35,681 nucleotides of DNA, taken from the NCBI GenBank assembly GCA_015655335.1, contig JAATFF010000136.1, positions 1 through 35,681 of the forward strand. The letters are read 5' to 3'. Shown piece after piece: positions 1 to 26,056 of this stretch (within the stretch, counting starts at the first letter, position 1; every line of letters begins with the position of its first letter). Under the pieces are notes generated by a model, which was not told the DNA's origin, did no database searches, and saw only the letters and a program-made list of their open reading frames with translations. The translations under genes and the position numbers were made by a program. The stretch comes from Lysobacterales bacterium. Lineage in GTDB: Bacteria; Pseudomonadota; Gammaproteobacteria; Xanthomonadales; Rhodanobacteraceae.

Positions 1-825
1 CGGCTCGATGTTCGTCTCGCCCTTCTTCGGACGGTCGAACTTGAAGTTCACGCCACGCAGGTCGATCACCACCTTCTGCGGGCAGCCATCCGGACCCACG
101 ATCGTACCTTCCGGCAGATCCGGGCACTTGTTGTCGCACAGGTTCACGCCGTTGCGGAACTGCTTGGAGCAGTCCGGTGCTGCCGGCGGCGAGGCCGTGG
201 GCGTAGGCGCGACGGGTAATGCGCCGAGACGTACGACGAGACTAAAACTAATGAACTCGTCTCCGTAGCCGCTCTTCGATGGGAATGTTTTATCGTCCCA
301 ATCGTAGCGGTAAGCCGCTTCAACTCGGAAATCCATGTTCTGTGTGATGATTTTGGAAAGACCCACACCCGCTTCAGCAGCCGGATCAATCCCTCTGTCG
401 AAAGTGTCGATGTGTTGACTCGCCATCAGGCCGCCCAGCAAGTAAGGGCGCCAGGCAGTCCAGTCTCTGAAGTAATAACGCACGGCCACACCAAAGTCAT
501 TGCTCGCCCATCGACCACGTCCGAGGTCGTAGTCAAGAGTACGCCGGGTGCGGTCGGCGAATAGATCGACCGAAACATTTGGCGAGAAAAATCTGCCAAC
601 GCCAATGCCGTAGAAGATCTGGTTTTTATTGGTAAAACGACTTGTGTCGTTGTGGTAATAGCCAACCATCGGTGCGACGTACCAGCGATCATCGTACGTG
701 GTTGCCTGGACATCATTCGTGCTGCCAGCGGTGCCGGCGGTGCCGGCGGTATTGTCCTGAGCATGGACGATGCCTGTGCAGCTCAGAGCAAGCGCAATAG
801 GAAGATATAAGCTCCTACGTTTCAT
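1..825 (-). CDS. OmpA-family outer membrane protein (3' end cut by window edge)
   Basis: 275 codons are visible and the frame is still open at position 1, so the C-terminal part is missing. The protein starts with a signal peptide (MKRRSLYLPIALAL..., probable cleavage after VHA near residue 22). About 185 residues follow with alternating aromatic and polar segments typical of an eight-stranded OmpA-type barrel (for example WYVAPMVGYY near residue 48). Then comes a Pro/Thr-rich linker and a Cys-rich calcium-binding-like piece (CDNKCPDLPEG, GPDGCP) of the thrombospondin type 3 sort, often found before a peptidoglycan-binding OmpA domain. The last visible residues (VVIDLRGVNFKFD) match the first strand of that domain. 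The start is supported by GGAG nine bases upstream. The likely role is an envelope porin or structural protein that ties the outer membrane to peptidoglycan. The family call is strong, the substrate unknown. Confidence 0.85.
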   Translation of the reverse strand, partial: MKRRSLYLPIALALSCTGIVHAQDNTAGTAGTAGSTNDVQATTYDDRWYVAPMVGYYHNDTSRFTNKNQIFYGIGVGRFFSPNVSVDLFADRTRRTLDYDLGRGRWASNDFGVAVRYYFRDWTAWRPYLLGGLMASQHIDTFDRGIDPAAEAGVGLSKIITQNMDFRVEAAYRYDWDDKTFPSKSGYGDEFISFSLVVRLGALPVAPTPTASPPAAPDCSKQFRNGVNLCDNKCPDLPEGTIVGPDGCPQKVVIDLRGVNFKFDRPKKGETNIEP

Positions 826-918
826 CAAGTGTCTCCAGTATGCAAATTTGATATTGGTTTTCATCCAGCCGAGGGCAACGGGCTCTCAACATCACCAACA
901 TCGAAAAGGAGGCCTCGA

Positions 919-1044
919 GTGAGTGATCGCGTTTTATCGCGACGACGAAAAGCATTAGCCGTTCTCATAGTTATTCTTCGAACGGAAGCATTCGTTTATG
1001 CAGGTTCTGCTATGCGCCGCTGCAGCGCGACCGCATTCCGGTAG
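919..1044 (+). CDS. Possible small protein, 41 aa, unknown
   Basis: A GTG codon is preceded by a near-perfect ribosome binding site (AAAAGGAGG, six bases upstream). It opens a 41-residue frame with a basic N-terminus (SDRVLSRRRK), a short hydrophobic stretch (ALAVLIVIL) and an Arg/Cys-rich tail. I do not recognise it. The strong ribosome binding site is the only argument for it. The composition could equally be a decayed gene start or chance. Confidence 0.25.
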   Translation: MSDRVLSRRRKALAVLIVILRTEAFVYAGSAMRRCSATAFR

Positions 1045-1130
1045 CTCGACAACGCTTGCCAGCGTGCCAGGAATGAATGAAAAATTTGCCGATGACCAGG
1101 GCCTTGGTCAAAACTTCCCCGGTCTTTCGT

Positions 1131-1313
1131 TCAACGCTTTCTCTCGTTTGGAGCGACCTTAGCCAGATTGGCCGAGGAATCACGTTGACGCAGCGCCTTT
1201 TCGGTAGCCTTATCTATCTTGGTGTCGTGGCGCTGATTGCTCGGGCCGGCGCCAGATTTTTGTTCCTGGACATGCTTTGAGGTATCAGGGCTATGGTGAT
1301 TTTTGATTTTCAC
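1131..1313 (-). CDS. Possible small hydrophilic basic protein, 60 aa, unknown
   Basis: A GTG start has GGAG eight bases upstream and opens a 60-residue, highly charged protein (KIKNHHSPDTSKHVQEQ..., ending in NERKR). It has no hydrophobic segment, no signal peptide and no cysteine. The composition is like that of disordered stress-type proteins, but no family is recognised. A longer frame exists upstream to 1406 without a better start. It ends on the same DNA as a hydrophobic plus-strand frame (1077-1280), and only one of the two is likely to be real. Confidence 0.3.
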   Translation of the reverse strand: MKIKNHHSPDTSKHVQEQKSGAGPSNQRHDTKIDKATEKALRQRDSSANLAKVAPNERKR

Positions 1314-1510
1314 GAATGAAGCTCCATGGCGTTGCCCAGGTGTGGGCGAGTGTGCTGTCAGAGCACCATACGCACTAGGCTTGCGCACCTCTGTGCGCCG
1401 CAACACATAGGGCTGGAGATGGGCGTCGATAGATCAGTTACTTAACCACCGATGCACGACACACATGACGAGCATCGACTGGACGCTCGCGCGATATCTA
1501 ATGGTGATTT

Positions 1511-2242
1511 CTAAATAAGCAGTGTATGAGCCGAAACGACTGGGAGCAGGCGATCGTATTCTTTCTTGACGACGGCGTAGCATTCACAGGTACGCTGTTC
1601 GAGTCCTGGACGGTCGAGTACGGTTATGTGCCCACGGCGATACTCGATCAGCCCCGCGTTCTGCAGGTGGCCGGCAGCTTCAGTGACACCCTCGCGACGC
1701 ACGCCAAGCATGTTGGCGATAAGCTCCTGCGTCATGACCAATTCTTTGGAATGCAGACGATCAAGGCTTAAAAGAAGCCATCGACAAAGCTGTTGATCCA
1801 ATGAATGGTGTCGATTGCATACTGCTGTTTGCGACATCTGCGTGATAAGGGCCTGCGTGTAACGGAGAAGTAGATGCATCACGAGGCCGGCTCGGTTGAA
1901 TTCCCCAAGCACCATGTCTCCTTTAAGCCGAAATCCCTTACCCGCGCTTTGTACAAGCGCACGACTTGGTGTCGACGCCCCACCCATAAAGAGCGAAATT
2001 CCTACGATGCCTTCATGACCGACGACCGCAATTTCGGCGGAAGCACCATCTTCCATCACATAGAGCAAAGAGACGATCGACGTGGTGGGGAAGTACACAT
2101 GCTCTACGCGGCTGCCCGATTCGTAGAGCACTTTCCCGAGTGGCATATCGACGGATTCCAAATGAGGCATCCATCGCGCCCACTCGGCATCCGGCAACGT
2201 GGCCAGTAGTTGATTTTGTCGCGGACCGGAACCCCAAGACAT
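1511..2242 (-). CDS. CRP/FNR-family transcriptional regulator (paralog 1)
   Basis: 243 aa from the ATG at 2242, chosen because GGAG lies six bases upstream; a longer frame to 2275 has no ribosome binding site. Residues about 10-130 form the cyclic-nucleotide-binding-type beta-roll (GKVLYESGSRVEHVYFP, then VGHEGIVG). A long dimer helix follows, then a winged helix-turn-helix at about 171-205 (TQELIANMLGVRREGVTEA). There is no FNR-type N-terminal cysteine cluster; a Cys-X-Cys-Tyr motif sits at 219-222 near the C-terminus. The canonical cAMP-binding Arg-Ser pair is not obvious, so the ligand is unknown. It is a paralog of the regulator at 3436-4167, with the same length and the same C-terminal motif. 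It is divergent from the stress-type gene starting at 2462, with a shared 219-bp control region. Confidence 0.85.
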   Translation of the reverse strand: MSWGSGPRQNQLLATLPDAEWARWMPHLESVDMPLGKVLYESGSRVEHVYFPTTSIVSLLYVMEDGASAEIAVVGHEGIVGISLFMGGASTPSRALVQSAGKGFRLKGDMVLGEFNRAGLVMHLLLRYTQALITQMSQTAVCNRHHSLDQQLCRWLLLSLDRLHSKELVMTQELIANMLGVRREGVTEAAGHLQNAGLIEYRRGHITVLDRPGLEQRTCECYAVVKKEYDRLLPVVSAHTLLI

Positions 2243-2461
2243 GTCGATCTCCAAAGCACCCCAGCGACAAAGCAATTTGCTTCAGGTTCGTCTTATCGGT
2301 CAGCCTGAAACACTACCGCGAGATCTTGCTGCGTGCGGCACCGTACCGACCTATCCCACTTATAGCACGCATAGTGCTGACGCATCTGTTATTGCGCAGG
2401 ACTAGGTGCCTTAATAGGAAAATCACATCTGTTGCTTTTGAAAATCGCTCGGAGTCGTAAA

Positions 2462-2947
2462 GTGGCTGACCTCATTGTTGCCAAGTTCGACACGCAGTTT
2501 GCAGGCATGGCTATCTTTGAGCGATTGCTTGCGCGCGGGGTGCGGCGCGATCAAATTATTCTGAGTGTCGACGAGAGTGTGGGAAATTCGGCAGCCAGTT
2601 CAAGCGCCCCTACGACAGTCATATCGACCATCAGTCATCTGGGCCAGCGAGAAGGTCGAGATGCTGCGGAGAAAACGCATCGCACTTCTGGCATTCGGTC
2701 GCCCAGCGATGTTCCGAGCCCCAAGGCTTTCGGTTATACCGTCGTCACTGTTCAACTTCCCTGCGAATTGTCGGCCGATCAGGTTGATCAACTGTTGAGT
2801 GATGCGGGCGCACAATCGATCGTTAGGGAGAGTGGCTCTTCGCTAACCGAGGATCCAAACATGTGGCCTGAGATTGGGCACGCTTCAAACATCGATGTAC
2901 AGCGGGCTATCGCCGCCGTCAAAGGTGGAGACGCATTGGGTCGTTAG
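2462..2947 (+). CDS. Small stress-type protein (general stress protein 17M-like fold)
   Basis: 161 aa from a GTG at 2462 that has GGAG about seven bases upstream (CGGAGTCGTAAAGTG); an in-frame start at 2432 lacks a good site. The N-terminus (ADLIVAKFDTQFAGMAIFERLLARGVRRDQIIL) matches the pattern of proteins in which a short beta strand and a helix separate two neighbouring residues of a chain; such proteins are often called general stress protein 17M-like or heat-induced YflT-like. The C-terminal half repeats the pattern (VVTVQLPCELSADQVDQLL, then DAGAQSIV). The middle (about 50-105) is Ser/Thr-rich and probably a linker. No catalytic motif or signal peptide is seen. It lies between two CRP/FNR regulators, which suggests control by one of them. 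The family assignment is a pattern judgement. Confidence 0.55.
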   Translation: MADLIVAKFDTQFAGMAIFERLLARGVRRDQIILSVDESVGNSAASSSAPTTVISTISHLGQREGRDAAEKTHRTSGIRSPSDVPSPKAFGYTVVTVQLPCELSADQVDQLLSDAGAQSIVRESGSSLTEDPNMWPEIGHASNIDVQRAIAAVKGGDALGR

Positions 2948-3435
2948 GTTGCGCCTTGAGTAAATCTCCTTGAGCTGTCTCGAACGTCGACGGGCCTGCT
3001 ATGTTCGAAAGCGTACAGATCCTGATATCCAAACAACTGATACTCCTTGGGTATCGCCGGGGAATATCCGTTTGGCAGGGACGCCCTCATGGGAAGGATT
3101 GCCTTTAAGGGGCAGGGATGCCCTAAGAGGATGGTGTGCCATGTCAGCATTGTTCTCGCCGGGGTCTTGGCTCCTATCGCTTATCTTCATATAGCTCCTG
3201 CTTATCGCTGAGCCTAAGCCACGGACTTCTTCTGATTTTTCCCTGCCGTTCGCGCAAGGCGAACGTAGATCGTCGCTATGACGTGGGCCCATTCCGAATG
3301 ACTTGATTGCGCGTATGGCGAGTTTGGTGCCTAAGCGAACAGATCGCTATTCGGTCTTGGCCTAGTCTGTGTTGTAGGAACATGTGCCACGGATCTCCCG
3401 ATCCCAACCGCCACGTAGTACATAAGGGCAGACAT
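2948..3435. other. Intergenic region with GGA-rich hairpins and an inverted repeat
   Basis: This 488-bp gap separates the stress-type gene from the second CRP/FNR gene. It holds the GGA-rich segment listed separately (3028-3145) and, further on, a 7-bp inverted repeat (CGTTCGC, then GCGAACG at about 3247-3265) that is not followed by a T-run. A minus-strand frame at 2999-3292 is open across the hairpins, but its sequence is only a read-through of them. Confidence 0.5.
3028..3145 (+). ncRNA. Candidate CsrA/RsmA-binding hairpin RNA
   Basis: Six GGA triplets fall within 71 bases (3061-3131). Two are in the exact CsrA core pattern CANGGANG: CAGGGACG at 3076-3083 and CAGGGATG at 3113-3120. Both are presented in a loop: GGC-AGGGAC-GCC and GGGC-AGGGAT-GCCC. 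Upstream, GATAC and GTATC form another stem at about 3040-3056, and AAGG/CCTT a short one at 3095-3104. This is how CsrB/RsmX-type sponge RNAs and CsrA-target leaders look. No promoter or terminator could be fixed, so it may instead be part of a long 5' leader of the CRP/FNR gene at 3436, or a dispersed intergenic repeat. The orientation is inferred from the GGA content of the plus strand. Confidence 0.35.
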
Positions 3436-4167
3436 TTGAAAATCAGAAGCGAAAGGCACGTCGTAAATAGGCTGATCAATGGCCTACCGCGCAAAGAGCG
3501 GGCAAGCGTGCTTGGGCGTTGCGATGTCGTAGAACTAACTTTCGGAGATGTCCTTTTCGAAGCAGGCTCAGCGATGGGTCATGCGTACTTCCCACTTAAC
3601 GGGTTCATATCGCTGTTGACGCTACTGGATGGTCGTCAACCGCTTGAGATGGCGTTAATAGGAAACGAAGGTATGGTCGGCGTCACGTTGACGCTCGGTG
3701 TATCCATGGCCCCCATGCGCGCCATCGTTCAGGGAACCGGTCAGGCACTTCAGATGAAAGCAGACGACCTTAAGCAGTCGCTGATCGAATGCCCGACCAT
3801 TAAGCAGACACTAAACCGGTATCTATACGTAACGATGCGACAATATCCACATATAGCCGCATGCACACATTTTCATGAGATCGAGCCGCGCCTGGCCCGA
3901 TGGTTACTCATGACGCATGATCGATCGTCGTCGGACAGCTTTCATCTAACCCATGAGTTTCTTGCCCGCATGCTTGGCGTACGCCGAAGTGGGGTCACCG
4001 TTGCAGCACGTACATTGCAACTGAGAAAGCTTATCGACTATCGGAGAGGGGAGATCACCGTTCTCAACCGTAAAGGACTAGAAAAGGCATCCTGTACTTG
4101 TTACCAGACACTCATCAATGATTACGAAAAACAATTCAGCGCTGGTCGTCGGATGGTTCGGCACTGA
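3436..4167 (+). CDS. CRP/FNR-family transcriptional regulator (paralog 2)
   Basis: The frame is open from 3307, but the conserved region begins late. A TTG at 3436, preceded by AAGGG seven bases upstream, gives 243 aa, exactly the length of the paralog at 1511-2242. The beta-roll domain (GDVLFEAGSAMGHAYFPLNG, then IGNEGMVGV) spans about 15-130, the dimer helix follows, and the winged helix-turn-helix is at about 172-206 (THEFLARMLGVRRSGVTVAA). A Cys-X-Cys-Tyr motif at 220-223 is shared with the paralog. There is no N-terminal FeS cysteine cluster. The ligand and targets are unknown. The long leader (2948-3435) with GGA hairpins could give it post-transcriptional control; this is inference. 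Confidence 0.85.
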   Translation: MKIRSERHVVNRLINGLPRKERASVLGRCDVVELTFGDVLFEAGSAMGHAYFPLNGFISLLTLLDGRQPLEMALIGNEGMVGVTLTLGVSMAPMRAIVQGTGQALQMKADDLKQSLIECPTIKQTLNRYLYVTMRQYPHIAACTHFHEIEPRLARWLLMTHDRSSSDSFHLTHEFLARMLGVRRSGVTVAARTLQLRKLIDYRRGEITVLNRKGLEKASCTCYQTLINDYEKQFSAGRRMVRH

Positions 4168-4203
4168 GACGCCAATAGCGCATCAACCCATAGGATCGAT
4201 GAC

Positions 4204-4377
4204 ATGAGCAAGGTTACGTACAACGAACTGACTTACGACTTCGATGACATCTGTAATCAGATGGACAAAAGTTTGACGGATAAGATTTATGATGCAACGA
4301 AGACAGATCAGGACTTTTTAAACAGCTATCTCGTCGTTCATCACGAAAAATATGGTGAGCAATTTGTTGTAAAGTGA
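4204..4377 (+). CDS. Small acidic protein, 57 aa, unknown
   Basis: An ATG with AGGA eight bases upstream opens a 57-residue frame (MSKVTYNELTYDFDDICNQM..., ending GEQFVVK) just 36 bases after the second CRP/FNR gene and on the same strand, so it may be co-transcribed with it. The protein is acidic and probably cytoplasmic, with two likely helices and a single cysteine. No family is recognised and no function is proposed. The good ribosome binding site and protein-like composition make it more likely real than not. Confidence 0.5.
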   Translation: MSKVTYNELTYDFDDICNQMDKSLTDKIYDATKTDQDFLNSYLVVHHEKYGEQFVVK

Positions 4378-4497
4378 GCTTAAAACTACCATCACCATCG
4401 ATTTTGTTCAGATCGTTCTGGCTGATGGAAAGAACGCCCAGCGCGACATGCTCGGCAAGTGATGAGTGGATGGCGCGTCCATGCGCAGACTATGCGT

Positions 4498-4956
4498 TTA
4501 TTGCCTTGCGCGGGTTAAGGTGAAATCGCCAACATCGACGCCAATGTCCACGCCTTCACCGTCTCCGGCCAGGACAAGTGAAACGGTTCCCTTGGTCAGA
4601 ACCTTAGCATCGCCGGACTTGACAACTCCAGCGTGAGCTTCACCTTGTGCATATGAGCCGATTACATCATTAATGGAGCGAATGTCGGAAAATTTTCCGG
4701 TTCCGTTACTAATGCGCGATTTCCCAACCGTCAAACCGCCGCCTTTCGCAGAAATATGGACATGCATGGATGTACCGTCGGCGCATTCCACCAAGCCGCT
4801 ACCCTTAGCCTGCTTGTAGATAACCGACCAGCTATTGAGTGAAAAGTGAAGTTTGCAATCGAGAGTTGCCTCTGAGGCATATGACGTGTTGCAGCTCATT
4901 CCGATGACGCCGACCGCTAGGAATGCAGCGATAGATTTTGCCAATACATGATTCAT
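4498..4956 (-). CDS. Conserved exported protein, unknown function
   Basis: 152 aa from the ATG at 4956, which has GGGGAT nearby and directly precedes a clear signal peptide (MNHVLAKSIAAFLAVGVIG..., cleavage probably after SYA near 27). A longer frame to 5121 is ignored because it would bury the signal. The mature part starts ATLDCKLHFSLNSW and holds a Gly-rich beta pattern (ISAKGGGLTVGKSRISNGTG), then VIGSYAQGEAHAG and a repetitive VDIGVDVGDF strand near the C-terminus. Two cysteines (in LDCK and VECADG) could form a periplasmic disulfide. This looks like an all-beta periplasmic or surface protein known as a hypothetical in Xanthomonadales. No activity can be assigned. It is divergent from the RcnB-like gene. 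Confidence 0.65.
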   Translation of the reverse strand: MNHVLAKSIAAFLAVGVIGMSCNTSYASEATLDCKLHFSLNSWSVIYKQAKGSGLVECADGTSMHVHISAKGGGLTVGKSRISNGTGKFSDIRSINDVIGSYAQGEAHAGVVKSGDAKVLTKGTVSLVLAGDGEGVDIGVDVGDFTLTRARQ

Positions 4957-5235
4957 GATTTCATCCCCAAAAAATGTGATGGAATTGCATAACCCGGGAG
5001 ATGCCATGGGGCGCATCTTGCATTGCGTCGTGAGTGACTCGTGAATCGCCCATCGCTGTTGCGCATCTGTGGCGTGTAGATCTGAATCATGTCGGACTGC
5101 TCTAGCAACCCATGCCAGCACGATGGCGTGATCCTTCAGGGAGGATAGTCCACCAGACGGCTTTCTGTCGGTGCGCTTGCGTACCGACGCGCCACTTCAA
5201 GGCATGCATGCTTAACATCCATGTAGGAGTAGATG

Positions 5236-5559
5236 ATGAAAACGAAATTGATGCTTGCCATTTGCGCAGCCCTTCTTTTTTCCACCGCAACCATGGCAGT
5301 CCAATCCGACAATCGCGGCAACGACCACCACCAAAGTAGCTCGGTGATGCACGATAGAGGCACTCACGAGGGTTGGTATAAGAAAGGTGGCGTAATGCCT
5401 AGCGATTATCGTAGCAACCAATATGTGGTTTCAGATTGGCACTCCGAAAATCTGCGTCAACCGCCGCCGGGATACAACTGGGTGCGTAGCGACAACGGTG
5501 ATTTCCTGCTTGTTGCCATAACGACGGGCGTGATCTCAAGCATTCTGTTGAGTCACTGA
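5236..5559 (+). CDS. RcnB-family periplasmic protein
   Basis: About 107 aa; the alternative first Met at 5233 is only three bases from AGGAG, so Met at 5236 (six bases away) is preferred. A signal peptide (MKTKLMLAICAALLFSTATMA) is followed by a His/Asp/Asn-rich stretch (QSDNRGNDHHQSSSVMHD) that could bind metal. Then comes the family signature: YVVSDWHSENLRQPPPGYNWV, then GDFLLVAITTGVISSIL at the end. RcnB in E. coli is a periplasmic protein needed for nickel/cobalt homeostasis with the RcnA exporter. No rcnA is seen nearby, so a metal role here is inferred from family only; many members of this family have unknown functions. Confidence 0.75.
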   Translation: MKTKLMLAICAALLFSTATMAVQSDNRGNDHHQSSSVMHDRGTHEGWYKKGGVMPSDYRSNQYVVSDWHSENLRQPPPGYNWVRSDNGDFLLVAITTGVISSILLSH

Positions 5560-5716
5560 GACTAAGCTGATCTTTTAAATGTGTAACGGACTCATCAAGG
5601 TTATGGGTCCATTTTCTTGACGAAGATTTCGATATGTCCACATTCCTTGTCCATCGGGATCCGGCGGCGATCACAGCCAACGAAGCGCACCCACATATCG
5701 TTTTCGGAGAATCACG

Positions 5717-6112
5717 ATGAACAATAGGTATACCTTAGAACTCGTTCTGGCCTCGTCGTTTGCTGTCTCAGCTGCCTACGCCGCGCCACGGGATAACCCA
5801 GGGGCACCGCAATCCAACGCGCCGCAAGTTAACGCTCAGGGCAACACTGTTGCCGTATCCGATCCACAAGCCCAGGTTACGTCTACGGTGCAGGTCGTTG
5901 ACGCCACGAACAATCAAGTCACCATCCGCTCCGCGCAAACTCCGCCACCTCAATATGGGCCCAAGGCTTCATTCGATGCACTCGACGTAAACCACGACGG
6001 AGTCGTCAGTAAATCGGAAGCCGACGCATATCCGCCACTGGCAAACGACTATCTTTACGTGGCTCGAAGAGGGAGTCGTGGTGTGACGCGCGCAGAATAC
6101 GATCGCTGGTAA
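5717..6112 (+). CDS. Exported EF-hand calcium-binding protein
   Basis: 131 aa with a signal peptide (to about AYAAP, residue 23). A Gln/Asn/Pro-rich low-complexity segment follows, then one canonical EF-hand loop at about 94-105 (DVNHDGVVSKSE, with acidic or polar residues at loop positions 1, 3, 5, 9 and 12). A second, degenerate EF-hand is suggested by the end (GVTRAEYDRW), where the loop has lost its acidic residues. A ribosome binding site (GGAGAATCACG) precedes the ATG. It is a probable periplasmic calcium sensor or buffer. It follows the RcnB-like gene in the same direction, but with a 157-bp gap, so an operon is uncertain. Confidence 0.7.
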   Translation: MNNRYTLELVLASSFAVSAAYAAPRDNPGAPQSNAPQVNAQGNTVAVSDPQAQVTSTVQVVDATNNQVTIRSAQTPPPQYGPKASFDALDVNHDGVVSKSEADAYPPLANDYLYVARRGSRGVTRAEYDRW

Positions 6113-6259
6113 TTTGAGTGCTTTGTAACGAGGCATAGGCTATAGGAGTGCCGCGGCCAAATGTCATCGACAGAGCGTAGACCGTACGCGCGAGCCACGT
6201 CGGCTACTGGATAGAAGAGGTCGGTCATTGATTGAAAGATTCGCCAGAGGATAGGCCAA

Positions 6260-7840
6260 GTGTTAGTCATGCTGCTACGTAGAACCGTTATCGCCGCGCT
6301 GGCGATCATGGCGCTTCTACTATGCGCGTGCTCGGATCTGCGTACTGACTTCGTCAAAAAGCCATCAAAGGCGTTGCCGCCGACAACGAGCACAGCTAGC
6401 GCTCAATATGTGCATGCCAGGGTAGATCAGCATCCGGACGAGTCTGGCTTTCGCTTGCTGACGAACAGTACCAATGCGCTGATGAGCCGGGTTGCACTTG
6501 CCGATCGTGCAAAAAACTCTATTGATCTCCAGTACTACATCTTCAACAACGACGCGACAGGGCGGTTGGTCGCGCAACGTTTGCTGGCTGCGGCAGATCG
6601 CGGCGTGCGTGTTCGCATACTGATCGATGACATTGGCGTACATGACGAGATCGACATGCTGGATGCACTCAGTGCACATAAAAATATCAAGGTACGATTA
6701 TTCAATCCGTTTCATACGCGTAGCCCTTCTTTCCTATCTAAGCTAACGCAATTTATGTTTGACGAGCATCGGCTTAACCGACGCATGCACAACAAGTCAT
6801 ACATCGTGGACAACAATGTGGCAATCGTCGGTGGTCGCAACATAGGCGATGAATATTTCGATGCTTCCAATGACACGAATTTTCGTGACCTTGACCTGAT
6901 TGCCATCGGTCCGGTCGTGATCGAAGCGTCGCACGCCTTCGACGAATACTGGAACTGCGATGCCTCCTATCCGGTTACGGCATTTCGTGGCAGGCGCGCC
7001 AGTCACTACGATCTCGCACAGCTGCGTATCGATCTCATCAAGGACGCGCGCGCATTCTCCCAATCCGACTATGCGCAGGCAGCGTCGGATGAATTTCCAA
7101 GCGGCCCTTCGGCAGATCGCCCTGGTGCGTGGTTCTGGGGTGGCGCCACGCTGGTGGCCGATCAGCCAGACAAAATAGAGACCACCAAGGACGATCCGGC
7201 ACTCCGCATCGGGCCACACATTAGGGCAATGATTGACCAGGCCCAGGGGGACGTGCTGCTGATATCTCCCTATTTCATTCCTGGAGACAGCGGCACGCGT
7301 TATCTCAGCGCGTTCACTGCTCGCGGCGTGGCGGTGAAAGTGCTTACGAATTCGCTCGCCTCCACCGATGAGACAGCGGTATATGCGGAGTACTCACGTT
7401 ATCGACGCAGGCTTCTCATGAGCGGTGTGCAGATCTATGAGTTGCGTCCCGCTGCAGGCTCAAAGCAATCGGTGACCGGCGAGGGGACATCGTCCGGTGT
7501 CAGCCTACACGCCAAAGCCATCGTGGTGGATAAGCAATGGGTTTTCATCGGTTCGATGAACATGGATCAGCGATCGAAACTGCTGAACACCGAAATGGGA
7601 ATTATTGTCGATAGCCCGCCGCTGGCGGCAGCTTTAACGCAGTTCTTCGATACCGCAACATTGCCAGCCAATGCTTATCACGTCGTATTGACAGCAGGCG
7701 GTTCTTCGAACGGAATGTTGCAGTGGCAGGCGAGCGATGCCGGCAAGCCTCTGGTCTATGGACATGCCCCCGATGTCACTGCGAGCCGACGGATGGGGGT
7801 GGTTATTTTCAAGCTGATGCCGATTGAGGGAATGCTTTAA
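6260..7840 (+). CDS. Phospholipase D / cardiolipin synthase-like lipoprotein
   Basis: 526 aa from GTG 6260 (AGAGG nine bases upstream); ATG 6269 is an alternative. The N-terminus is a lipoprotein signal with lipobox L-C-A-C24. Two complete HxK(x)4D motifs mark a phospholipase D fold: H177-N-K179...D184 and H417-A-K419...D424, each followed by the usual Gly/Ser (GGRNIGDEYF, GSMNMDQRS). Length and spacing match the ClsC (YmdC) branch of cardiolipin synthases, which uses phosphatidylethanolamine and phosphatidylglycerol in E. coli. That enzyme needs the partner YmdB, and no such gene is seen here. The lipobox suggests a periplasmic, membrane-tethered enzyme. A general phospholipase D activity is the alternative. 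Confidence 0.8.
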   Translation: MLVMLLRRTVIAALAIMALLLCACSDLRTDFVKKPSKALPPTTSTASAQYVHARVDQHPDESGFRLLTNSTNALMSRVALADRAKNSIDLQYYIFNNDATGRLVAQRLLAAADRGVRVRILIDDIGVHDEIDMLDALSAHKNIKVRLFNPFHTRSPSFLSKLTQFMFDEHRLNRRMHNKSYIVDNNVAIVGGRNIGDEYFDASNDTNFRDLDLIAIGPVVIEASHAFDEYWNCDASYPVTAFRGRRASHYDLAQLRIDLIKDARAFSQSDYAQAASDEFPSGPSADRPGAWFWGGATLVADQPDKIETTKDDPALRIGPHIRAMIDQAQGDVLLISPYFIPGDSGTRYLSAFTARGVAVKVLTNSLASTDETAVYAEYSRYRRRLLMSGVQIYELRPAAGSKQSVTGEGTSSGVSLHAKAIVVDKQWVFIGSMNMDQRSKLLNTEMGIIVDSPPLAAALTQFFDTATLPANAYHVVLTAGGSSNGMLQWQASDAGKPLVYGHAPDVTASRRMGVVIFKLMPIEGML

Positions 7841-7880
7841 AGCGGTCAGCTAAGACGCGTGACATGGTTAAGCATCGTCA

Positions 7881-7908
7881 ATTGCGCATAATGTATATTA
7901 TGTCAAAT
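7881..7908 (+). other. dif: XerCD recombination site (dif)
   Basis: The 28-bp site reads XerC arm ATTGCGCATAA, central region TGTATA, XerD arm TTATGTCAAAT. Compared with E. coli dif (GGTGCGCATAA, TGTATA, TTATGTTAAAT), 25 of 28 positions agree. The centre is identical, and one change (T to C) lies in the XerD arm. XerC/XerD resolve chromosome dimers at this site next to FtsK at the terminus. A second copy was looked for by eye in the window and not found, which favours the chromosomal dif over an integrated dif-using phage or element flanked by two sites. Confidence 0.85.
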
Positions 7909-7946
7909 TTAATCAGAGCCGCGAGAAAGGCTGGTCTGGCGGTCGG

Positions 7947-8000
7947 CCAATAAATTGGACTAGCGACCAGTTATGTGGATTGGAACGAGCAATTTATTGG
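7947..8000. repeat. Perfect 11-bp inverted repeat next to dif
   Basis: CCAATAAATTG at 7947-7957 and CAATTTATTGG at 7990-8000 are exact reverse complements separated by 32 bases. A second, shorter pair (CTGGTC 7931-7936, GACCAG 7965-7970) is interlaced with it. There is no T-run after it, so a standard terminator is unlikely. It may be a protein-binding palindrome or a small mobile-element remnant. The function is unknown. Confidence 0.5.
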
Positions 8001-8184
8001 AATCGCCAAGTAGTTAATTAGACTGAGTTGGTTGTCTGCCGCGTTGAACTATGCGCCGTAACCGCGAAGTTGATGCTTCTTCCCTGTGGACATCTCTGCA
8101 TTGCTCCCATCAGGCGCACATAACTATGTACCGAATCATCAGTTAGCGCAGACAATGATGCCGACTTCCGAGCAGCGCCAACCT

Positions 8185-8538
8185 TTAAGACGTCGACTTA
8201 CTGGTCCGATTACGTAGTTTAGGTTTCACCGCAGCGACTGCTTTGCGGGTGGCCGGCTTCGATGTCGGCGTTTGGCGGCGGCCTCGATGTAAGGCAACTT
8301 CTAAGGCAGCAACTCGCCCAGCCTGATGGGCGGCTGCCTGTTCAGCTGTTCGCACGGCGGACCGTAATGCTTCCAATTGAGTGGTGAGCTGGGCGACTTG
8401 CTTGCTATGGTCGCGTTGCTCACGCTCCAGCCGTTGTTGGAGGGTTTTGATTTCCTGGCGAGCCTGATCGACCTGCTGATGGGCGCGGTCCTCTAGGAGG
8501 CGTGCTTGCTCAAGCGCAGTCGTCCGTTCGGCGCGCAA
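8185..8538 (-). pseudogene. KfrA-like coiled-coil fragment (5' part missing)
   Basis: 117 codons from a TTG; the open frame begins only about 45 bases further upstream. The sequence is one long heptad-type coiled coil (ERTTALEQARLLEDRAHQQ..., LQQRLEREQRDHSKQVAQL..., AAHQAGRVAALEVAL) followed by a Lys/Arg/Thr-rich tail (RKAVAAVKPKLRNRTSKS). This is the C-terminal pattern of KfrA-type plasmid or island DNA-binding proteins, which carry a helix-turn-helix domain of about 120 residues in front. That domain is absent here and its place is taken by the divergent gene at 8615. It could instead be a small stand-alone coiled-coil protein, but no convincing start or ribosome binding site is present. 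Confidence 0.5.
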
Positions 8539-8614
8539 TGTCTGGACGTCTCCTAGTTTTTCGTAATACCTGCCAATTGATTGGCATCATAGCGTCGTGC
8601 CAGAGGAGAAACGC

Positions 8615-8842
8615 GTGGCAGATCACCGACAGTACGATCTGGTACCGCTGCAACGTCTGCTTAAGGTGTTGGACGACGAGACTCGTCTTGAGCTTGCGTA
8701 TGCACCTCGATTTATTCACTGGTTTGATCACGAGCCGCTGTCGGCCTTTTCTGGTTTGACCGCACGGCAGTTGGTAGAGCGTGGGTGCGAGAACGATGTC
8801 GCGCGTTACCTGTCGAGCCTTCTGGATGGATTCTTGGGTTAA
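8615..8842 (+). CDS. Short Xre/MbcA/ParS-type antitoxin-like protein
   Basis: 75 aa from GTG 8615, preceded by GAGGAG six bases upstream (an earlier in-frame GTG at 8597 has no site). The C-terminal 40 residues (FDHEPLSAFSGLTARQLVERGCENDVARYLSSLLDGFLG) follow the toxin-binding domain found at the end of Xre/MbcA/ParS antitoxins (DUF2384 type): Pro-Leu near the start, a GLTARQL helix, then a long C-terminal helix ending in Gly. The N-terminal helix-turn-helix of full antitoxins is missing and no RES-domain toxin lies next to it, so it is probably an orphan or remnant. It is divergent from the KfrA-like fragment. Confidence 0.6.
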   Translation: MADHRQYDLVPLQRLLKVLDDETRLELAYAPRFIHWFDHEPLSAFSGLTARQLVERGCENDVARYLSSLLDGFLG

Positions 8843-8915
8843 CACTTTTCATCGTGTTTGCGCCGCCCTGACCCGAGCTGGGTCACCGTGGACCAGTACA
8901 ACGACACACTGAAGT

Positions 8916-9358
8916 TGTGACCAAACCACTATGTGATGCTGTGACTTTGCCCCTTTTCTGCCCTGTGACCAGCCAAGCTAAAAAACTCACAGCTTTAATA
9001 TGGGCTGCAGCCGTGTCCTCCAAAAAGTCACAGCTTCTGGTGTCGAGGCTCAACCGATCCCGGTGAATTTTGTGCCACCAACTGGTTACCGCCGAAAAGT
9101 CTGGGCCGAATCTGCCAACTTTTTGGTCCATTCCTGCCAACAACTTCATGCCATCAATGCCATCTGCCAACTAGTTGTGGCCACGGTTTAAGCATCTGCC
9201 AATAACTTGAGGCCAACGTAGAAATTCGACCCAAAAGTCTGGTCCGCGGTGTCGTTGGAAAATCCACTGATCCGTTCGTACGTCGACGGACTGCGGCTGT
9301 GACCAAACCGCAACGTGATGCTGCGGGAAACCAAGAAGCTGCCACGGATAACTTGTAC
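8916..9358. repeat. Array of short direct repeats, possible transposon end
   Basis: No gene is seen in 8843-9431. Instead several repeat families occur. (a) A motif near CTGCCAAC-(A/T)A-(C/G)TT-x-TGGCCA occurs at about 9110, 9132, 9162 and 9194, with looser copies at 9071 and 9336. (b) A 28-bp unit starting TGTGACCAAACC occurs at 8916-8943 and 9298-9325, with 24 of 28 positions equal. (c) AAAAA(C/G)TCACAGCTT occurs at 8980 and 9022. (d) A-AAAAGTCTGG-type copies occur at 9093 and 9231. Multiple spaced binding sites of about 20 bp are typical of the ends of Tn7/Tn5053-like (TniA/TnsB) transposons, and a tniQ fragment lies close by at 9561-10190. Plasmid iterons are an alternative because a KfrA-like fragment also lies near. 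Confidence 0.5.
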
Positions 9359-9431
9359 AAACTAGACTTAGTTCTGGCCACCAGCGGCCATCCAGCACTC
9401 AATGGATGAAGGAAGCCATTATAGGTGTCAC

Positions 9432-9560
9432 TGGAGTTACCAGGGTTTCGTGGACACGGGATCAGTGCTGCTTGATCGCTGCCTCGTAGCTAGATGGACT
9501 CATGCCTTGTAAATAGCTGTGGTGGCGTACTGAATTGTAGAAATTTTCTATAGGGCCCCC
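9432..9560 (-). mobile_element. 3' end fragment of an IS3-family insertion sequence
   Basis: On the minus strand a frame ending at 9462 reads IENFYNSVRHHSYLQGMSP, then SSYEAAIKQH and stop. This is the conserved C-terminus of IS3-family OrfB transposases (the stretch after the last catalytic Glu, with FYN.xR.HS.L..MSP..YE). After the stop lies a terminal-repeat-like sequence whose outer end is TGGAGTTACCAGGG and inner end TTTCGTGGACA (9432-9456), in the style of IS2/IS407-group ends. The catalytic core and the left end are missing, so only about 130 bp of the element remain. Confidence 0.7.
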
Positions 9561-10190
9561 GTTTGACTGTTCGAGCCATAAGCTCCCTGATGTCTTGCGT
9601 CAGAGCATTGCCCTTCTCCGGAACATGCCACGGTTCGACGTGAAACTGCCAAGCACCGTGCGAGTAGTCGTGAAACGGCAAGAACGGCGGCAAATTACTC
9701 ATATAGGGTCGAAGCGCGTCGCACAACACGGCGGTGACACCTTTCGATGCGCGATACGGAACCATGCTGGGCAACTGTTGACTCGGTGGATACGCGATAT
9801 AGATCGGGTCGATCACAAAATCGATCACCCTTTTCATGTCCTGCGCCCATGCGAAATGCTGAGCTAATGCATTGTCAAGGTCGTCAAGAGGATCGAGGAG
9901 TCCGAGCAGACAATGACCCGATAGATCGCAGCCACGGGGACAGCGGAGTGCGCTCTTTGAGTACGGCAGATGGCTCTTCCAAGGGACGGGCGTATCACAC
10001 TGCGTGCAGCAACTTGTGAGTGCCACGTGATGTCTTGGGCATTAGTCAAGCAGCGTGCATTGATACGCGTAGCTATAGCGCCCCTCTATGAGGCATCGTG
10101 GGCAAAATCGCATGTACTCGTTGGGGTGGCTCTCCAGTGTGGGTAATATTTCCCACGCCGCCGTCAGGGTTTGAGCGGGTGCCCAAGACA
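9561..10190 (-). pseudogene. tniQ: tniQ/tnsD-family transposition protein fragment with in-frame stop
   Basis: Reading the minus strand, EYMRFCPRCLIEGRY, then SYAYQCTLLD, stop, CPRHHVALTSCCTQCD gives the zinc-binding signature of TniQ/TnsD proteins (CPxC ... CPRH ... CxxC), broken by a TAA at 10042-10044 in the codon just before CPRH. The frame is unchanged on both sides, so this is a nonsense change and not a frameshift. The fragment then continues for about 150 residues (PRGCDLSGHCLL..., YRASKGVTAVLCDALRPYM) until it runs into the IS3 end at about 9560. The N-terminus is also missing: upstream of about 10190 the DNA is the MXKDX gene. TniQ/TnsD select the target site in Tn5053- and Tn7-like transposons. 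This copy must be inactive. Confidence 0.75.
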
Positions 10191-10195
10191 GTGGA

Positions 10196-10399
10196 ATGGC
10201 AAAGGACTCGATGAGCCATGACGACATGACTCACGATGGCATGAAGAAGGACGCTATGGGGCACGACGCGATGAAGAAAGACGCGATGTCCAAGGACACT
10301 ATGGCGAAAGATGCCATGTCCAAGGACGCCAAGAGCAGCGATGCAATGAAGGGCAACATGAGCCACGACACCGCGGGAAACGACAGCTCGCAGCATTAA
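10196..10399 (+). CDS. MXKDX pentapeptide-repeat protein, 5' truncated
   Basis: About 67 residues made of near-perfect five-residue repeats of the form M-x-K/H-D-x (MAKDS MSHDD MTHDG MKKDA MGHDA MKKDA MSKDT and so on), ending HDTAGNDSSQH. Proteins of this pentapeptide MXKDX family are normally exported small proteins with a signal peptide ending near Ala-Gln-Asp. Here in-frame codons for A-Q-D-S-G precede the ATG, then a stop occurs at about 10168, and no ribosome binding site or signal sequence is left. The signal-peptide part has therefore been lost at the junction with the tniQ fragment. Probably not expressed as an exported protein. The function of the family is unknown. Confidence 0.6.
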   Translation: MAKDSMSHDDMTHDGMKKDAMGHDAMKKDAMSKDTMAKDAMSKDAKSSDAMKGNMSHDTAGNDSSQH

Positions 10400-10414
10400 A
10401 AGCCCCTGCTATCT

Positions 10415-10452
10415 CTGCCCATGTCATCCCAGCTGGCATGGGCAGCTTTTTA
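10415..10452 (+). terminator. Rho-independent terminator after the MXKDX gene
   Basis: CTGCCCATG at 10415-10423 and CATGGGCAG at 10437-10445 form a perfect 9-bp stem with a 13-base loop, followed at once by CTTTTTAC. It sits 16 bases after the stop of the MXKDX gene and 47 bases before the end of the convergent response-regulator gene. Confidence 0.8.
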
Positions 10453-10498
10453 CTTTCGCCGAAAATTGAAATCGCTCATTGACGGCACAACTTCGGTA

Positions 10499-11254
10499 TC
10501 AGCAGTTGCTTGACAGCTCTGCCAGACGGTCCTGAATGCGCTTGCGGTAACGGCGGCTCAAACGGAGACGAGCCGTGGAATCCAGCACGACCTCGTATTC
10601 GCCACCATCCTGCAGTTCCAGCCCCCGAACTCGGTTGAGGTTAACGATGGTCGAGCGGTGGGTACGCGCGAATGTTTGTGCGTCCAGATCCTGTTCGAGC
10701 TCCTGCAGCGTGCGGCGCAGGATGTGTGTGTCCGCGCCCACATGGATGCAGGCGTAGTAGCTTGCCGCTTCGATCCAATCGATATCTGCGACGTCAATGA
10801 ACAAGGTCTGCCCTCGGCTCTTGACCGCGATTCTGCTGATCGAGCGGCGTTGCGTTGGTGCATAACGCGCAAGCTTTTCCTTGGCGCGTGCAAGGGCGCG
10901 ATGGAAGCGCGCATCGTCGAAGGGCTTCAAGAGGTAGTCCAGGGCGCCCGCCTCGAAGGCGCGCAACGCATACACATCGTAGGCCGCCACGAAGATGACG
11001 GTCTCAGGCATATCCGCACCAAGCAGCTCGAGCACATCGAAGCCATCACATTCGGGCATTTGGACGTCCAGGAACACGAGGTCTGGCCTGGACCGCCGAA
11101 CCTCCTTGATCGCCTCCAATCCTGATTCGCATTCGATCACCGACGCGATATCGGGATCGTTGCGCAACAGGAGCGTGAGATTGCGCCGCGCCAAGGCCTC
11201 GTCATCGACGACCAGGACGTTGATCGACTGGGAATGGTTCTCAGACGATGCCAT
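10499..11254 (-). CDS. LytTR-family response regulator
   Basis: 251 aa. Receiver domain at about 11-125 with acidic pocket D17-D18, phosphoacceptor D63 (LVFLDVQMP) and conserved K110 (LLKPF). The LytTR DNA-binding domain spans about 140-245 (IAVKSRGQTLFIDVADIDWIEA..., RTHRSTIVNLNRV). The position of the conserved switch Thr (FVTAYD in most relatives) is Ala90 (IFVAAYD). The gene starts directly at the stop of the histidine kinase gene upstream (TGA then ATG, no gap), so the two are made from one transcript and probably translationally coupled. Function: phospho-dependent DNA binding, target genes unknown. AlgR/LytR relatives control exopolysaccharide, pili or cell-wall genes. Confidence 0.9.
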   Translation of the reverse strand: MASSENHSQSINVLVVDDEALARRNLTLLLRNDPDIASVIECESGLEAIKEVRRSRPDLVFLDVQMPECDGFDVLELLGADMPETVIFVAAYDVYALRAFEAGALDYLLKPFDDARFHRALARAKEKLARYAPTQRRSISRIAVKSRGQTLFIDVADIDWIEAASYYACIHVGADTHILRRTLQELEQDLDAQTFARTHRSTIVNLNRVRGLELQDGGEYEVVLDSTARLRLSRRYRKRIQDRLAELSSNC

Positions 11255-12361
11255 TCACGTCTCCAAGAATGGCAAGGTCACAACAACCTCCACGCCACTG
11301 GTGTCGACAGGCCTCAACAGCAACTCGGATCGGTCGCCATGCAGGATGCGCAAACGGGTGCGCAGGTTGCTCAGGCCGACGCCATCGGACGTCGCATCCA
11401 GATCCTCCTGGACCCATGGCCCGTCGTTGTAGACCGTCAGACGAAGTGTGTCATCGCTGCACGCCCCTGCGACACGGATATCACCGCCGGCGACGCGCTT
11501 GGACACGCCGTGTTTGATGGCGTTCTCCACCAGCGGCTGCAGCAGGAGATTCGGAACCTGCGCATCTCCAAGCTCGGCGGGAATGTCGAGACTCACGCGA
11601 AGGCGGTCCCCGAACCGGACCTTCTGGATATCGATATAGCGCTGCAGGTATTCAACTTCCTCCGTCAGAGTCACTTGTGCCCGGTGGGAGTCTTCCGACG
11701 CGCGACGCAGAAACTCGCTCAAGCCCACGATCATCCCGATCGCTGCATCGTTGCGTTGGTCTCGTACAAGGCCAACGATCGAATTGAGCGTGTTGAACAT
11801 GAAGTGCGGATCCATCTGGCTCCGTAGCGCAGCAAGCTGGGCGCGAGACAACTCCCCATTGAGCCGTGCGGTCTCGCTCATCTGCCGCTGCACCTTTTCA
11901 CGCGAGTCCACGACATATGTGACGGTCAGGATCAGCGCATAGGCGATCACGAATGTCACGATCTGGTCGGTGAGCAACGAGTACCACGTGTCGACGAAGT
12001 TGGGCGCTGGATTGTGGTGCCACGGATTGACGATGACCCGAAGCATGGCCGACCACGCCTCAGCGACCATGCTGACGATGGCGAAGGCCACCAGATGCAT
12101 GATTCCCGCCTTCAGAACCGCCCCGCGAACGATCGGCCGCCTTCGCGCCAGTTCGACGATCAATGGTGTCGCCAACATCCAGGGCAGCCAGGACACGAAC
12201 ACGACAATGAATGGAGAAAACCACAACCCTTGCGCGCCCATGGCGCGCATGGTGAAGATGGTCTGACTCGCATCGAAGAACGCGCCGGCACACCAGATGG
12301 CTGCGATCCAAGTCCAGCGGGTCGAGCGCGAGTTCGGGCGAGTATCTGTCATGACCATCAC
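11255..12361 (-). CDS. LytS-type sensor histidine kinase
   Basis: 368 aa with four likely membrane segments at about 19-36, 49-70, 84-108 and 128-150. A short coiled linker (REKVQRQMSETARLNGELS) follows, then the His_kinase (HisKA_3/LytS) domain. The phosphorylated His is H186 in QMDPHFMFNTLNS, and the ATP-binding N-box is LLLQPLVENAIKHG (N280). The G-box is DGVGLSNLRTRL. There is no periplasmic sensor domain, so the signal is probably sensed in the membrane. It is the partner of the LytTR regulator directly downstream. The start MMVMTD has a second in-frame Met at position 4; either could be used. Confidence 0.9.
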   Translation of the reverse strand: MMVMTDTRPNSRSTRWTWIAAIWCAGAFFDASQTIFTMRAMGAQGLWFSPFIVVFVSWLPWMLATPLIVELARRRPIVRGAVLKAGIMHLVAFAIVSMVAEAWSAMLRVIVNPWHHNPAPNFVDTWYSLLTDQIVTFVIAYALILTVTYVVDSREKVQRQMSETARLNGELSRAQLAALRSQMDPHFMFNTLNSIVGLVRDQRNDAAIGMIVGLSEFLRRASEDSHRAQVTLTEEVEYLQRYIDIQKVRFGDRLRVSLDIPAELGDAQVPNLLLQPLVENAIKHGVSKRVAGGDIRVAGACSDDTLRLTVYNDGPWVQEDLDATSDGVGLSNLRTRLRILHGDRSELLLRPVDTSGVEVVVTLPFLET

Positions 12362-18363: not shown

Positions 18364-18609
18364 CGGAACGTCATTCGGTGGAGAGTTCGAATTGAGAAAG
18401 TCTACACCCTCAAACCATGAAATTCCCCGGATCGCGCTTTGCCGTTTGGCCTTTTAGCCATCGGTATCGTGAGGTGCTTGTTCATGAAACGTGACCATCA
18501 TTTATTGCGTGAAGGCTATCCGCCGACGCAATAAAGCGTATTCAGTGCTGTCGATCCGATTGCATATTTCTCCGCACAGGAATTCCCCGCGTGCTGCATC
18601 ACATTGCGG

Positions 18610-19278
18610 TCAACCCGCCGCCAGGGCACGAATATCGGCGGCTTCCAGAACCGTCTTTGGAGCGCCGTGCCGGGCCACTGCCAGCATCGCCTGTCCCATG
18701 ACTTCCGTAGAAAGCATCACGTTCGGCAACAGCAAACGTAGCGGCGTCAAAAGCGGCTTGGTCAGGCTATAAAGAAGCCGGTACGAAGTTGTCTTGGACT
18801 GTATGCCATGCAGAGGCTGGATCGCTCCGGGGCGGAACAAGTACACGGCTTTGAAGGGCAGTCGCTGCAAGGCATTTTCGGTGCGCCCCTTTACGCGCGC
18901 CCACATGTTCCTTCCCTGCTCGCTGCTGTCAGTTCCAGTTCCGGATACGTAGACGAAGGTCATGCCGGGATTTAGCAGGACCAGACTTTGCGCAATGCTT
19001 AGGGTGAGGTCGTACGTCAGGTGCGCATAAGCGGCTTCGGCCATGCCAGCGGATGAGACGCCCAGGCAAAAGAAGCAGGCATCGAAGCCTCTCAGGTTCT
19101 CCTTCACAGAGCCGGAGTCGAAGAGATCGTGCTGCACGATCTCCTTCAACTTGGGGTGCTGCTGTCCAGTAACCGTTCGGCCTACGGTTTGGATGAGCGC
19201 GACGTCCGGCGCCAGCAAGCACTCCCTCAAAGCACCTTGTCCGACCATCCCAGTGGCGCCATATAGAAGGACGTTCAT
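18610..19278 (-). CDS. NAD(P)-binding atypical SDR / NmrA-like protein
   Basis: 222 aa. The N-terminus (MNVLLYGATGMVGQGALREC) carries the G-x-x-G-x-x-G dinucleotide motif of atypical short-chain dehydrogenases, followed by DACFFCLGVSSAGM and by YVSGTGTDSSEQGRNMWARVKGRTE, where the SG-T and the K of an active-site-like triad can be seen, but the Tyr-x3-Lys order is replaced by a spaced W-A-R-V-K. Such proteins act as oxidoreductases, epimerases or redox sensors. The substrate here is unknown. It is divergent from the sirtuin gene at 19394 with a 115-bp gap. Confidence 0.8.
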   Translation of the reverse strand: MNVLLYGATGMVGQGALRECLLAPDVALIQTVGRTVTGQQHPKLKEIVQHDLFDSGSVKENLRGFDACFFCLGVSSAGMAEAAYAHLTYDLTLSIAQSLVLLNPGMTFVYVSGTGTDSSEQGRNMWARVKGRTENALQRLPFKAVYLFRPGAIQPLHGIQSKTTSYRLLYSLTKPLLTPLRLLLPNVMLSTEVMGQAMLAVARHGAPKTVLEAADIRALAAG

Positions 19279-19393
19279 TAGATTTCCTTAGGGAAAGTGG
19301 TGGACACTGCCTCACCGTTCTAGTGCTTGCACCAGTACTTTTCAACGCAATGGCTCAAACCCGCCACCACCAAACGGAGCCGACACGGCGTTT

Positions 19394-20731
<1,338 letters not shown>

Positions 20732-20804
20732 TTAGATGACTTTCTTACAGTGAGTAGCATGACGAATTGGCACGGAATTGTACTAACTTATTGATTTTAT
20801 TATT

Positions 20805-20816
20805 CCCACTCGATCA
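20805..20816. other. attL core (former guaA 3' end)
   Basis: TCCCACTCGATC is identical to 24316-24327. The outer flank on the minus strand completes GAA TAA, giving the same last three amino acids (E-W-E) as the present guaA but with a different stop codon. Confidence 0.85.
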
Positions 20817-21308
20817 TCAACGAGTCACGCAAGTCCGCGTGATTAAAGGGATTGGCTTTGATCGACATGAGCCTTTACCGTCGCTTTTACCGTCAGAAAA
20901 ACACGCCCTTTGCTGGCGCGGGTTTGCGCGGTATCGGCTCATGATCAACCAGCCCTAATCATACCGAACAGGCGACCGCACTTCAGCCCTTCTCTTCGAG
21001 AGCAGTCTGACGTACCTCATGCTCGATAGCCACGCTGGACGTTCGGTCAAATAGCCATTTTTGCTGTTCAGTGAATCTTGTCGTCCCCGCGACCGCGCCC
21101 CCCCCTGCCGCAAGCCGTCGGTGATTTTGAATTGTTGATCCAGTCGTAGCCAGACTACGACAACGACAACTTATCCAAAAATCTCGCGCGACCCTCGACG
21201 CTCATCCGGCACTGCGACAGAGAAGAACACTGTCACCACTGTCGCCCTTCTTGCCGCTGCCAAGATGTCAGAAACTAGTGTATCATTTCTCTGTTCCAGA
21301 GGTGCCCC
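20817..21308. other. Island left arm without gene, with arm-type repeats and a hairpin
   Basis: No gene is supported here. It holds two TTTACCGTC copies (20874-20882 and 20885-20896), matching the cluster beside the integrase, a run of nine C at about 21099-21107, and a 7-bp inverted repeat GTCGTAG / CTACGAC (21143-21149, 21155-21161) with a 5-base loop. Just before the antitoxin gene the sequence CAGAAACTAGTGTATCATTTCTCTG forms an imperfect dyad that could be an antitoxin operator. Confidence 0.5.
20874..20896 (+). repeat. Left TTTACCGTCA arm-type repeats
   Basis: Two direct copies, TTTACCGTC (20874) and TTTTACCGTCAG (20885), are of the same kind as the six copies at 24028-24197. Paired arrays at both ends of an integrase-encoded element are typical of integrase arm-binding or excisionase sites. 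Confidence 0.65.
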
Positions 21309-22935: not shown

Positions 22936-22983
22936 CGATCTCCGGGGAAATCCACGACTCCTGCCGAGGACATCAAAAGAAGG

Positions 22984-26044: not shown

Positions 26045-26056
26045 CGAGCGGGAGCA

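Follow-up and report, generated by a model that had tools for sequence, protein, structure and literature searches.

Transposons of the Tn5053/Tn402 type are described as res site hunters, which use the resolvase of their target and insert so that the tniA-distal end comes to lie nearest to that target (available portion of PMC7765201). The IS1202 group contains "dif site hunters", ISAjo2 and its kin, with ends of the form TGT...ACA, which produce 5-bp duplications on inserting beside dif (available portions of PMC10132070 and PMC9455709). These elements are 1.5 kb long, encode one transposase and keep to a single orientation, 5 bp away from the XerC site. IMEX and filamentous phages occupy the same chromosomal address by integrating into dif through XerCD. 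Here, these systems are compared with the surroundings of a dif site in a 35,681-nucleotide stretch of DNA (the window), which is contig C13 of a draft genome, and with the dif regions of its relatives. The elements beside dif in the relatives share with Tn5053/Tn402 the tniABQ genes, 5-bp duplications, insertion at a recombination site and the same polarity (as given in the available portion of PMC7765201). They differ in that their constant landmark is dif, the site of XerCD, rather than a serine-resolvase res site, in that they use either side of it, and in that a KfrA-like protein and a tyrosine recombinase are found where tniR-res would be. Because the target is not a res site, we do not class these elements as members of Tn5053/Tn402 and regard them only as working alike. 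With the IS1202 group they have in common insertion beside dif with 5-bp duplications, and they are set apart by a size of 14.7–34.8 kb, by tniABQ and cargo, and by a distance of 27–53 bp from dif on either side. Unlike the IMEX and filamentous phages, they insert beside dif and leave it whole.

The dif site of the window lies at 7881–7908 on the + strand and consists of a XerC arm (7881–7891; ATTGCGCATAA), a centre (7892–7897; TGTATA) and a XerD arm (7898–7908; TTATGTCAAAT). An earlier note on this DNA had read the two arms and the centre in this way and had counted 25 of 28 positions as identical to E. coli, and a recount against the E. coli K-12 dif (as printed in the available portion of PMC2731167) gave the same figure, with three positions differing. 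The site therefore resembles the E. coli-type dif/XerCD system in its length of 28 bp, its 11-6-11 layout, its single occurrence, its position at a skew switch and the accompanying XerC and XerD genes, and differs from it at three positions, of which position 24 is normally C or A in the genus. Dinucleotide shuffles of the window yielded no dif match at three or fewer mismatches (0 of 100), and the search for a second dif-like site that the note had proposed found, at the same threshold, only the window's own site in the draft genome (3,504,455 bases in 169 contigs, 86% complete), where the dif pattern read backwards had 0 matches. The T-to-C change in the XerD arm, which had been taken for a local difference, is no such thing: the comparison with relatives found the same kind of site in 15 of the 16 same-genus genomes (own included), and at position 24 seven of these 15 sites carry C, eight carry A and none carries the T of E. 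coli. When the own genome and 60 relatives were considered together (n=61), 50 had dif, 49 of them as a single site and one (G042) as two. The identical 29 bp are present in nine named records, seven being Dyella species and two being MAGs with a beta-proteobacterial label. Both recombinases are encoded in the own genome with scores above the cut-off (XerC on contig C110, 345.9 bits; XerD on contig C30, 345.6 bits). The gap around the site (7841–8184) had been called AT-rich, which holds only mildly, at 48% G+C versus 57% for the whole window.

The position of the site within the chromosome was assessed from FtsK guide motifs, which we take to be GGGNAGGG, and from G+C skew. There is one forward motif at 3110, to the left of dif, and there are seven reverse motifs at 17753–32655, to its right, with the polarity flipping somewhere between 3110 and 17753; the skew of the window (+0.007 left of dif, −0.010 right) is weak on its own. 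In the closed genome of the relative G010, examined as 20 samples of 20 kb, both skew and FtsK motifs change over from the sample at 2.04 Mb to that at 2.28 Mb, and dif is at 2.25 Mb. In the closed relative G003, the skew turns between the samples at 0.78 and 0.96 Mb and dif is at 0.85 Mb, with the caveat that one later skew sample is out of line and the FtsK motifs are mixed. Since the site is single, is accompanied by XerC and XerD, lies where the FtsK motifs flip and has counterparts at the skew turn of relatives, 7881–7908 is the chromosomal dif at the terminus, as the note had proposed. Taken by itself, it is the ordinary chromosome-dimer resolution site of a Dyella-like bacterium. The G+C content of the window is ~0.50–0.55 at 1–10000, on the dif side, and ~0.57–0.63 at 20000–35000, in the housekeeping half.

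The left neighbour of dif is a phospholipase D-like gene (6260–7840, + strand; PLDc_2, E 1.1e-42). A possible transposon-end scrap that faces dif on the XerC side (7859–7871, + strand; GTGACATGGTTAA) is present as a single copy in the window and has a non-significant end-profile match (E 0.96). The clearest piece of debris is on the XerD side, where a relic of the C-terminal part of a KfrA_N-type coiled-coil protein (8188–8586, − strand) lies 308 bp from dif with its transcription directed towards dif. This relic was recognized by homology to full-length Dyella proteins and is 57–62% identical to those of other Dyella genomes over ~110–130 aa; a full-length homologue matches KfrA_N (E 3.9e-20), and the own genome has no KfrA match other than the relic (E 2.4e-30). 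An 81-aa ORF in the debris (8597–8842, + strand) shares 69% identity with a sequence of G011 (L048) that lies ~9 kb from dif. Farther out are a possible relic of an IS3-type transposase C-terminus (9465–9599, − strand; rve_2 19.1 bits, below the Pfam cut-off of 22) and a possible TniQ relic directed towards dif (9493–10230, − strand; matched part 10018–10122; PF06527 26.9 bits, cut-off 27). The TniQ piece scored 27.3 bits with its neighbours and 15 bits in another scan, and has one internal stop. The debris is bordered on the right by genes for a LytTR response regulator and a histidine kinase (10499–12361, − strand; Pfam matches).

No TniB match was found in the window, and for TniA there is only a 54-residue stretch at 15097 (E 0.006); the one other candidate for a tniABQ remnant there is the weak TniQ piece. 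In the own genome, KfrA and TniQ had no match besides these, and TniA had none at E 0.001; scanning the window for Rfam families and tRNAs gave no hits. The relic in the window is decayed, with a strong KfrA, a weak TniQ and a transposon end that is not significant. An origin of the debris from a plasmid was considered and rejected, as the DNA search returned six records whose matches were all short, five of these falling at annotated MXKDX-repeat genes. At some distance from the debris, an AbiEi/AbiEii toxin-antitoxin pair adjoins the N-terminal part of a tyrosine integrase (21309–22935 and 23305–24087); these pieces, flanked by tadA and by the 3' end of guaA, are a remnant of another island. 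For the debris on the XerD side of dif, we put the probability at roughly three in four that it is the decayed remnant of a TniA–TniB–TniQ transposon family with dif as its landing mark.

When the KfrA-like protein of G014 was searched against 197 family genomes, with up to 12 candidates scored per genome so that copies may be missed, at least 83 matches in at least 61 genomes were returned; a search of the same 197 genomes for dif was positive in 116. The matches divide into 15 in genomes without a found dif, 8 off the dif contig and 60, from 45 genomes, that share a contig with dif. At least 53 KfrA pieces in at least 40 genomes are no more than 50 kb away from dif, and at least 34 genomes have a piece within 10 kb and at least 29 within 5 kb. 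The orientation of the near-dif pieces is strikingly uniform: 52 of the 53 are transcribed towards dif, from both sides (23 on the XerD side and 30 on the XerC side), and the sole exception is a weak match in G083. Since dif itself is asymmetric, this mirror symmetry speaks for insertion next to the site and not into it. Seven matches on the dif contig lie beyond 50 kb, among them two diverged copies of G003, 65 and 225 kb from dif, whose orientation is the reverse of that of the near-dif pieces; G083 and G003 violate the orientation rule and count against the reading of a dif-targeting transposon. The match in G116 is ~48 kb from dif when counted across the start of a nearly genome-long contig, and then obeys the rule. 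The KfrA relic of the window fits the pattern in side, orientation and distance, and supports the reading of a transposon inserted beside dif.

In the relatives, the KfrA-like gene is divergent from a tyrosine recombinase gene. Relatives of this recombinase are common on plasmids, and in the three regions examined the divergent gene is annotated as "DNA-binding protein" or "hypothetical". Two such relatives (L186 and L185), on a Rhodanobacter denitrificans plasmid and a Xanthomonas plasmid, are divergent from "DNA-binding protein" genes, and the R. denitrificans copy adjoins CBASS phospholipase and mer genes. We rejected the idea that the KfrA/recombinase pair acts as an independent module whose own recombinase directs it to dif, as near dif it sits inside tniABQ elements. 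Because of that location, the KfrA/tyrosine recombinase pair is taken as, rather than proven to be, the putative resolution module of those elements. NCBIfam offered no useful name for the KfrA-like protein, TniQ, TniB or TniA.

In part of the genomes, the dif-adjacent end carries repeats like GTGACACGGTTAA, closing with GACGACA towards dif. Nine such ends were used to build a profile, which was applied to the two flanks of each of 113 dif sites from 112 genomes, the own one among them. Of these 226 flanks it matched 19 at E<1e-3, nine of them seeds and ten non-seeds. All 19 matches face dif and 0 face away, with 8 on the XerC side and 11 on the XerD side. As the best score in a background of 40 stretches of 20 kb (800 kb) from two genomes was only 7.6 bits, which 22 of the 27 listed flank matches exceed, the view that these are ordinary genomic repeats was rejected. 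Short motifs were counted as well. The 6-mer ACGACA, at a gap of 15–60 bp, occurred 17 times facing dif and once reversed in the 116 discovery flanks, and five times facing and three times reversed in 108 new family flanks, where it is hardly enriched and counts against the signal; the 5-mer CGACA gave 31 facing versus 7 reversed in the discovery flanks and 22 versus 7 in the new ones. The end-motif signal holds in the new flank set and is weaker there.

The gap between end and dif is mostly 27–53 bp. A profile match in G203 at ~75 bp counts against a narrow gap, and G010 has another type of end, at 22 bp from dif, which we take to be Tn5053-like; the ends of the main clade described below are, on our assumption, unlike Tn5053, and only that of G010 resembles it. 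The flanks of dif have little DNA in common even between congeners, and for this reason empty-site comparison within genera mostly failed. Where it worked, the alignments of G069/G096 and G148/G157 stop at the last base of dif, and that of G172/G163 runs up to its first base. It is possible to suppose that place and orientation are set by the direction of replication or of FtsK translocation near the terminus, with no recognition of dif, and the mirror-symmetric orientation on both sides of dif would fit that equally well. We nevertheless consider this unlikely, since a gap of 27–53 bp requires a fixed point and the flanks share little besides dif itself. Transposition next to dif, with dif as the mark, is the reading that we prefer.

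The element in G014 has, outward from dif, one end, KfrA, the recombinase, cargo, TniQ, TniB, TniA, a regulator and the far end at 34.8 kb, with Pfam matches to TniQ (E 3.7e-8), TniB (2.7e-35) and Mu-transpos_C (4.8e-13). The tniABQ genes were confirmed by Pfam in G014 and G010, and by homology the gene order of G014 is also present in G067, G020, G033, G144 and G010, with the TniA of G085 located farther off. The structures nearest to TniA are those of TnsB transposases; between TniA and the far end of G014, a list of ORFs of 120 aa or more holds the regulator only, and no TnsA-like gene was noticed in it. Perfect 5-bp duplications were found in four of the six elements for which both ends could be compared, a count that leaves out G085. 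These are CCAAC in G014 (42 bp from dif, element of 34.8 kb), GAAAC in G144 (53 bp, 30.6 kb), ATGCG in G067 (32 bp, 29.6 kb) and ACGGT in G033 (28 bp, 14.7 kb). In G020 and G010 the 5 bp outside the two ends do not match, which counts against this reading. In G020, another element has its dif-type end 7 bp beyond the far end of the first, and in G010 the first element is likewise succeeded by a second end; these arrangements indicate that copies stack. The cargo, described from the G014 element only, includes a CBASS-like set (oligonucleotide cyclase, TRIP13 and SAVED endonuclease) together with WYL, PDC-S39 and HEC-07 proteins.

In the family, 26 TniA matches were identified at E below 1e-50. 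Nine of these are on the dif contig, 11–38 kb from dif (G014, G067, G020, G085, G033, G144, G010, G077 and G035), three are off the dif contig in genomes where dif lies at least 75 kb inside its own contig (G004, G165 and G011), and 14 were not placeable relative to dif. A tree of 26 rows, made up of 25 matches plus the weaker G166 and with G128 left out, contained a main clade of seven (support 100/99), in which all six placeable members are linked to dif, and a sister clade of seven (support 99/99), in which neither of the two placeable members is. Outside both clades, G010, G077 and G035 are dif-linked; G011, which is close to G035, is unlinked and counts against the pattern. TniQs of other lineages lie far from dif in the closed genomes G145, G211 and G035. 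The TniQ piece of the window is weak and unlike the main clade, which also counts against our reading; the profile of the dif-linked TniQs does not recognize it (E 1.5), and the relic perhaps comes from another lineage. In other families of the order, among the matches listed, TniA is 36–82 kb from dif in G048, G050, G368, G385, G405 and G039, a TniA fragment is 86 kb from dif in G402, and G388, G232 and G049 have TniA and dif on separate contigs. End motifs near dif are weak or absent in the genomes beyond the family, and a spread of dif-linked TniA beyond it is only suggestive. With its different end, G010 raises the possibility that insertion at the side of dif had more than one origin within the tniABQ elements.

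These distributions also bear on the view that the terminus is merely tolerant, with insertions of all kinds surviving there and KfrA/recombinase modules present without any targeting. That flanks differ so widely even between congeners, and that other elements are at the same place (Zot-bearing phages and a weak IS3-type relic), would be in keeping with tolerance. It is, in our judgement, decidedly improbable as the explanation, given the narrow gap to dif, the one end that always faces dif among the 19 profile matches, the 52 of 53 KfrA pieces that point at dif from both sides, the 5-bp duplications, the clade-specific linkage to dif and the remoteness from dif of other-lineage TniQs in the closed genomes of G145, G211 and G035. 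A further reading makes the debris a decayed IMEX, the remains of a phage or island that entered dif through XerCD. Elements of this kind exist in G180, where a Zot gene is enclosed by two perfect, directly repeated dif sites that lie ~11 kb apart across the contig start, and in G002, with a Zot gene 1.4 kb from dif. For this debris the reading is hardly credible in view of the single dif-like site in window and genome, the absence of any phage family among the pieces of 7841–10500 tested with Pfam, and recognizable relics that are KfrA- and TniQ-like. The two-dif arrangement of G180 (L181, L182) is that of a typical dif-integrated filamentous phage, and the Zot gene of G002 (L040, 11393–12586), on the XerD side of dif, is likely to belong to another dif-integrated phage. 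The earlier note had suggested that mobile-element debris gathered at the terminus site, and this idea is supported and can be sharpened, in that the relatives have transposons inserting beside dif; the IMEX or CTX-like phages that it offered as the mechanism do not fit the debris, though Zot genes sit at dif in two relatives.

Our preferred reading, a transposon family with dif as its landing mark, can be extended to the way in which the elements work. A clade of TniABQ elements probably uses the XerCD–dif complex as a mark, inserting ~27–53 bp off on either side with a fixed end to dif, stacking, and carrying CBASS-type cargo and a KfrA-like/tyrosine recombinase resolution module, and a separate Tn5053-like lineage (G010) would do likewise at 22 bp. 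From what is known of the protein families, chromosome dimers would be resolved at 7881–7908 by XerC and XerD under the control of FtsK. We speculate that TniQ and TniB sense the XerCD–dif complex, or FtsK arriving there, that TniA would then insert the element replicatively, and that the cointegrate would be resolved by the KfrA/recombinase pair. The way in which the elements would sense dif is suggested by analogy with the res site hunters and the IS1202-group dif hunters. New copies would land between dif and older copies, and the older copies would be pushed outward and decay into a heap like that of the window, with the 28 bp of dif staying intact. The window may represent a late state of this process, in which dif is intact and a KfrA relic is left on the XerD side in the expected orientation.

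The literature that was searched, outside of which lay most subscription papers and all preprints, contained no description of a large TniABQ dif hunter. Nor did it contain, with subscription papers again mostly outside the search, a paper joining KfrA, a tyrosine recombinase and the dif site, or one joining tniA and XerCD. In the available text of the papers retrieved, Tn5053 and the dif site co-occur only in a reference list, and TniQ and the dif site are used apart; the available portion of PMC8649781, on Tn7-like cargo, has 0 occurrences of dif or Xer. The use of dif as a target of tniABQ transposons thus seems to be a new target choice. Because dif is widespread, is usually single and must stay intact, it offers mobile elements a safe place to insert. 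If the reading is true, the target choice of the Tn7/Tn5053 superfamily would be extended from resolvase-bound res sites to a tyrosine-recombinase complex, which would help to explain the variable flanks of dif and would make dif a place to look for defence islands.
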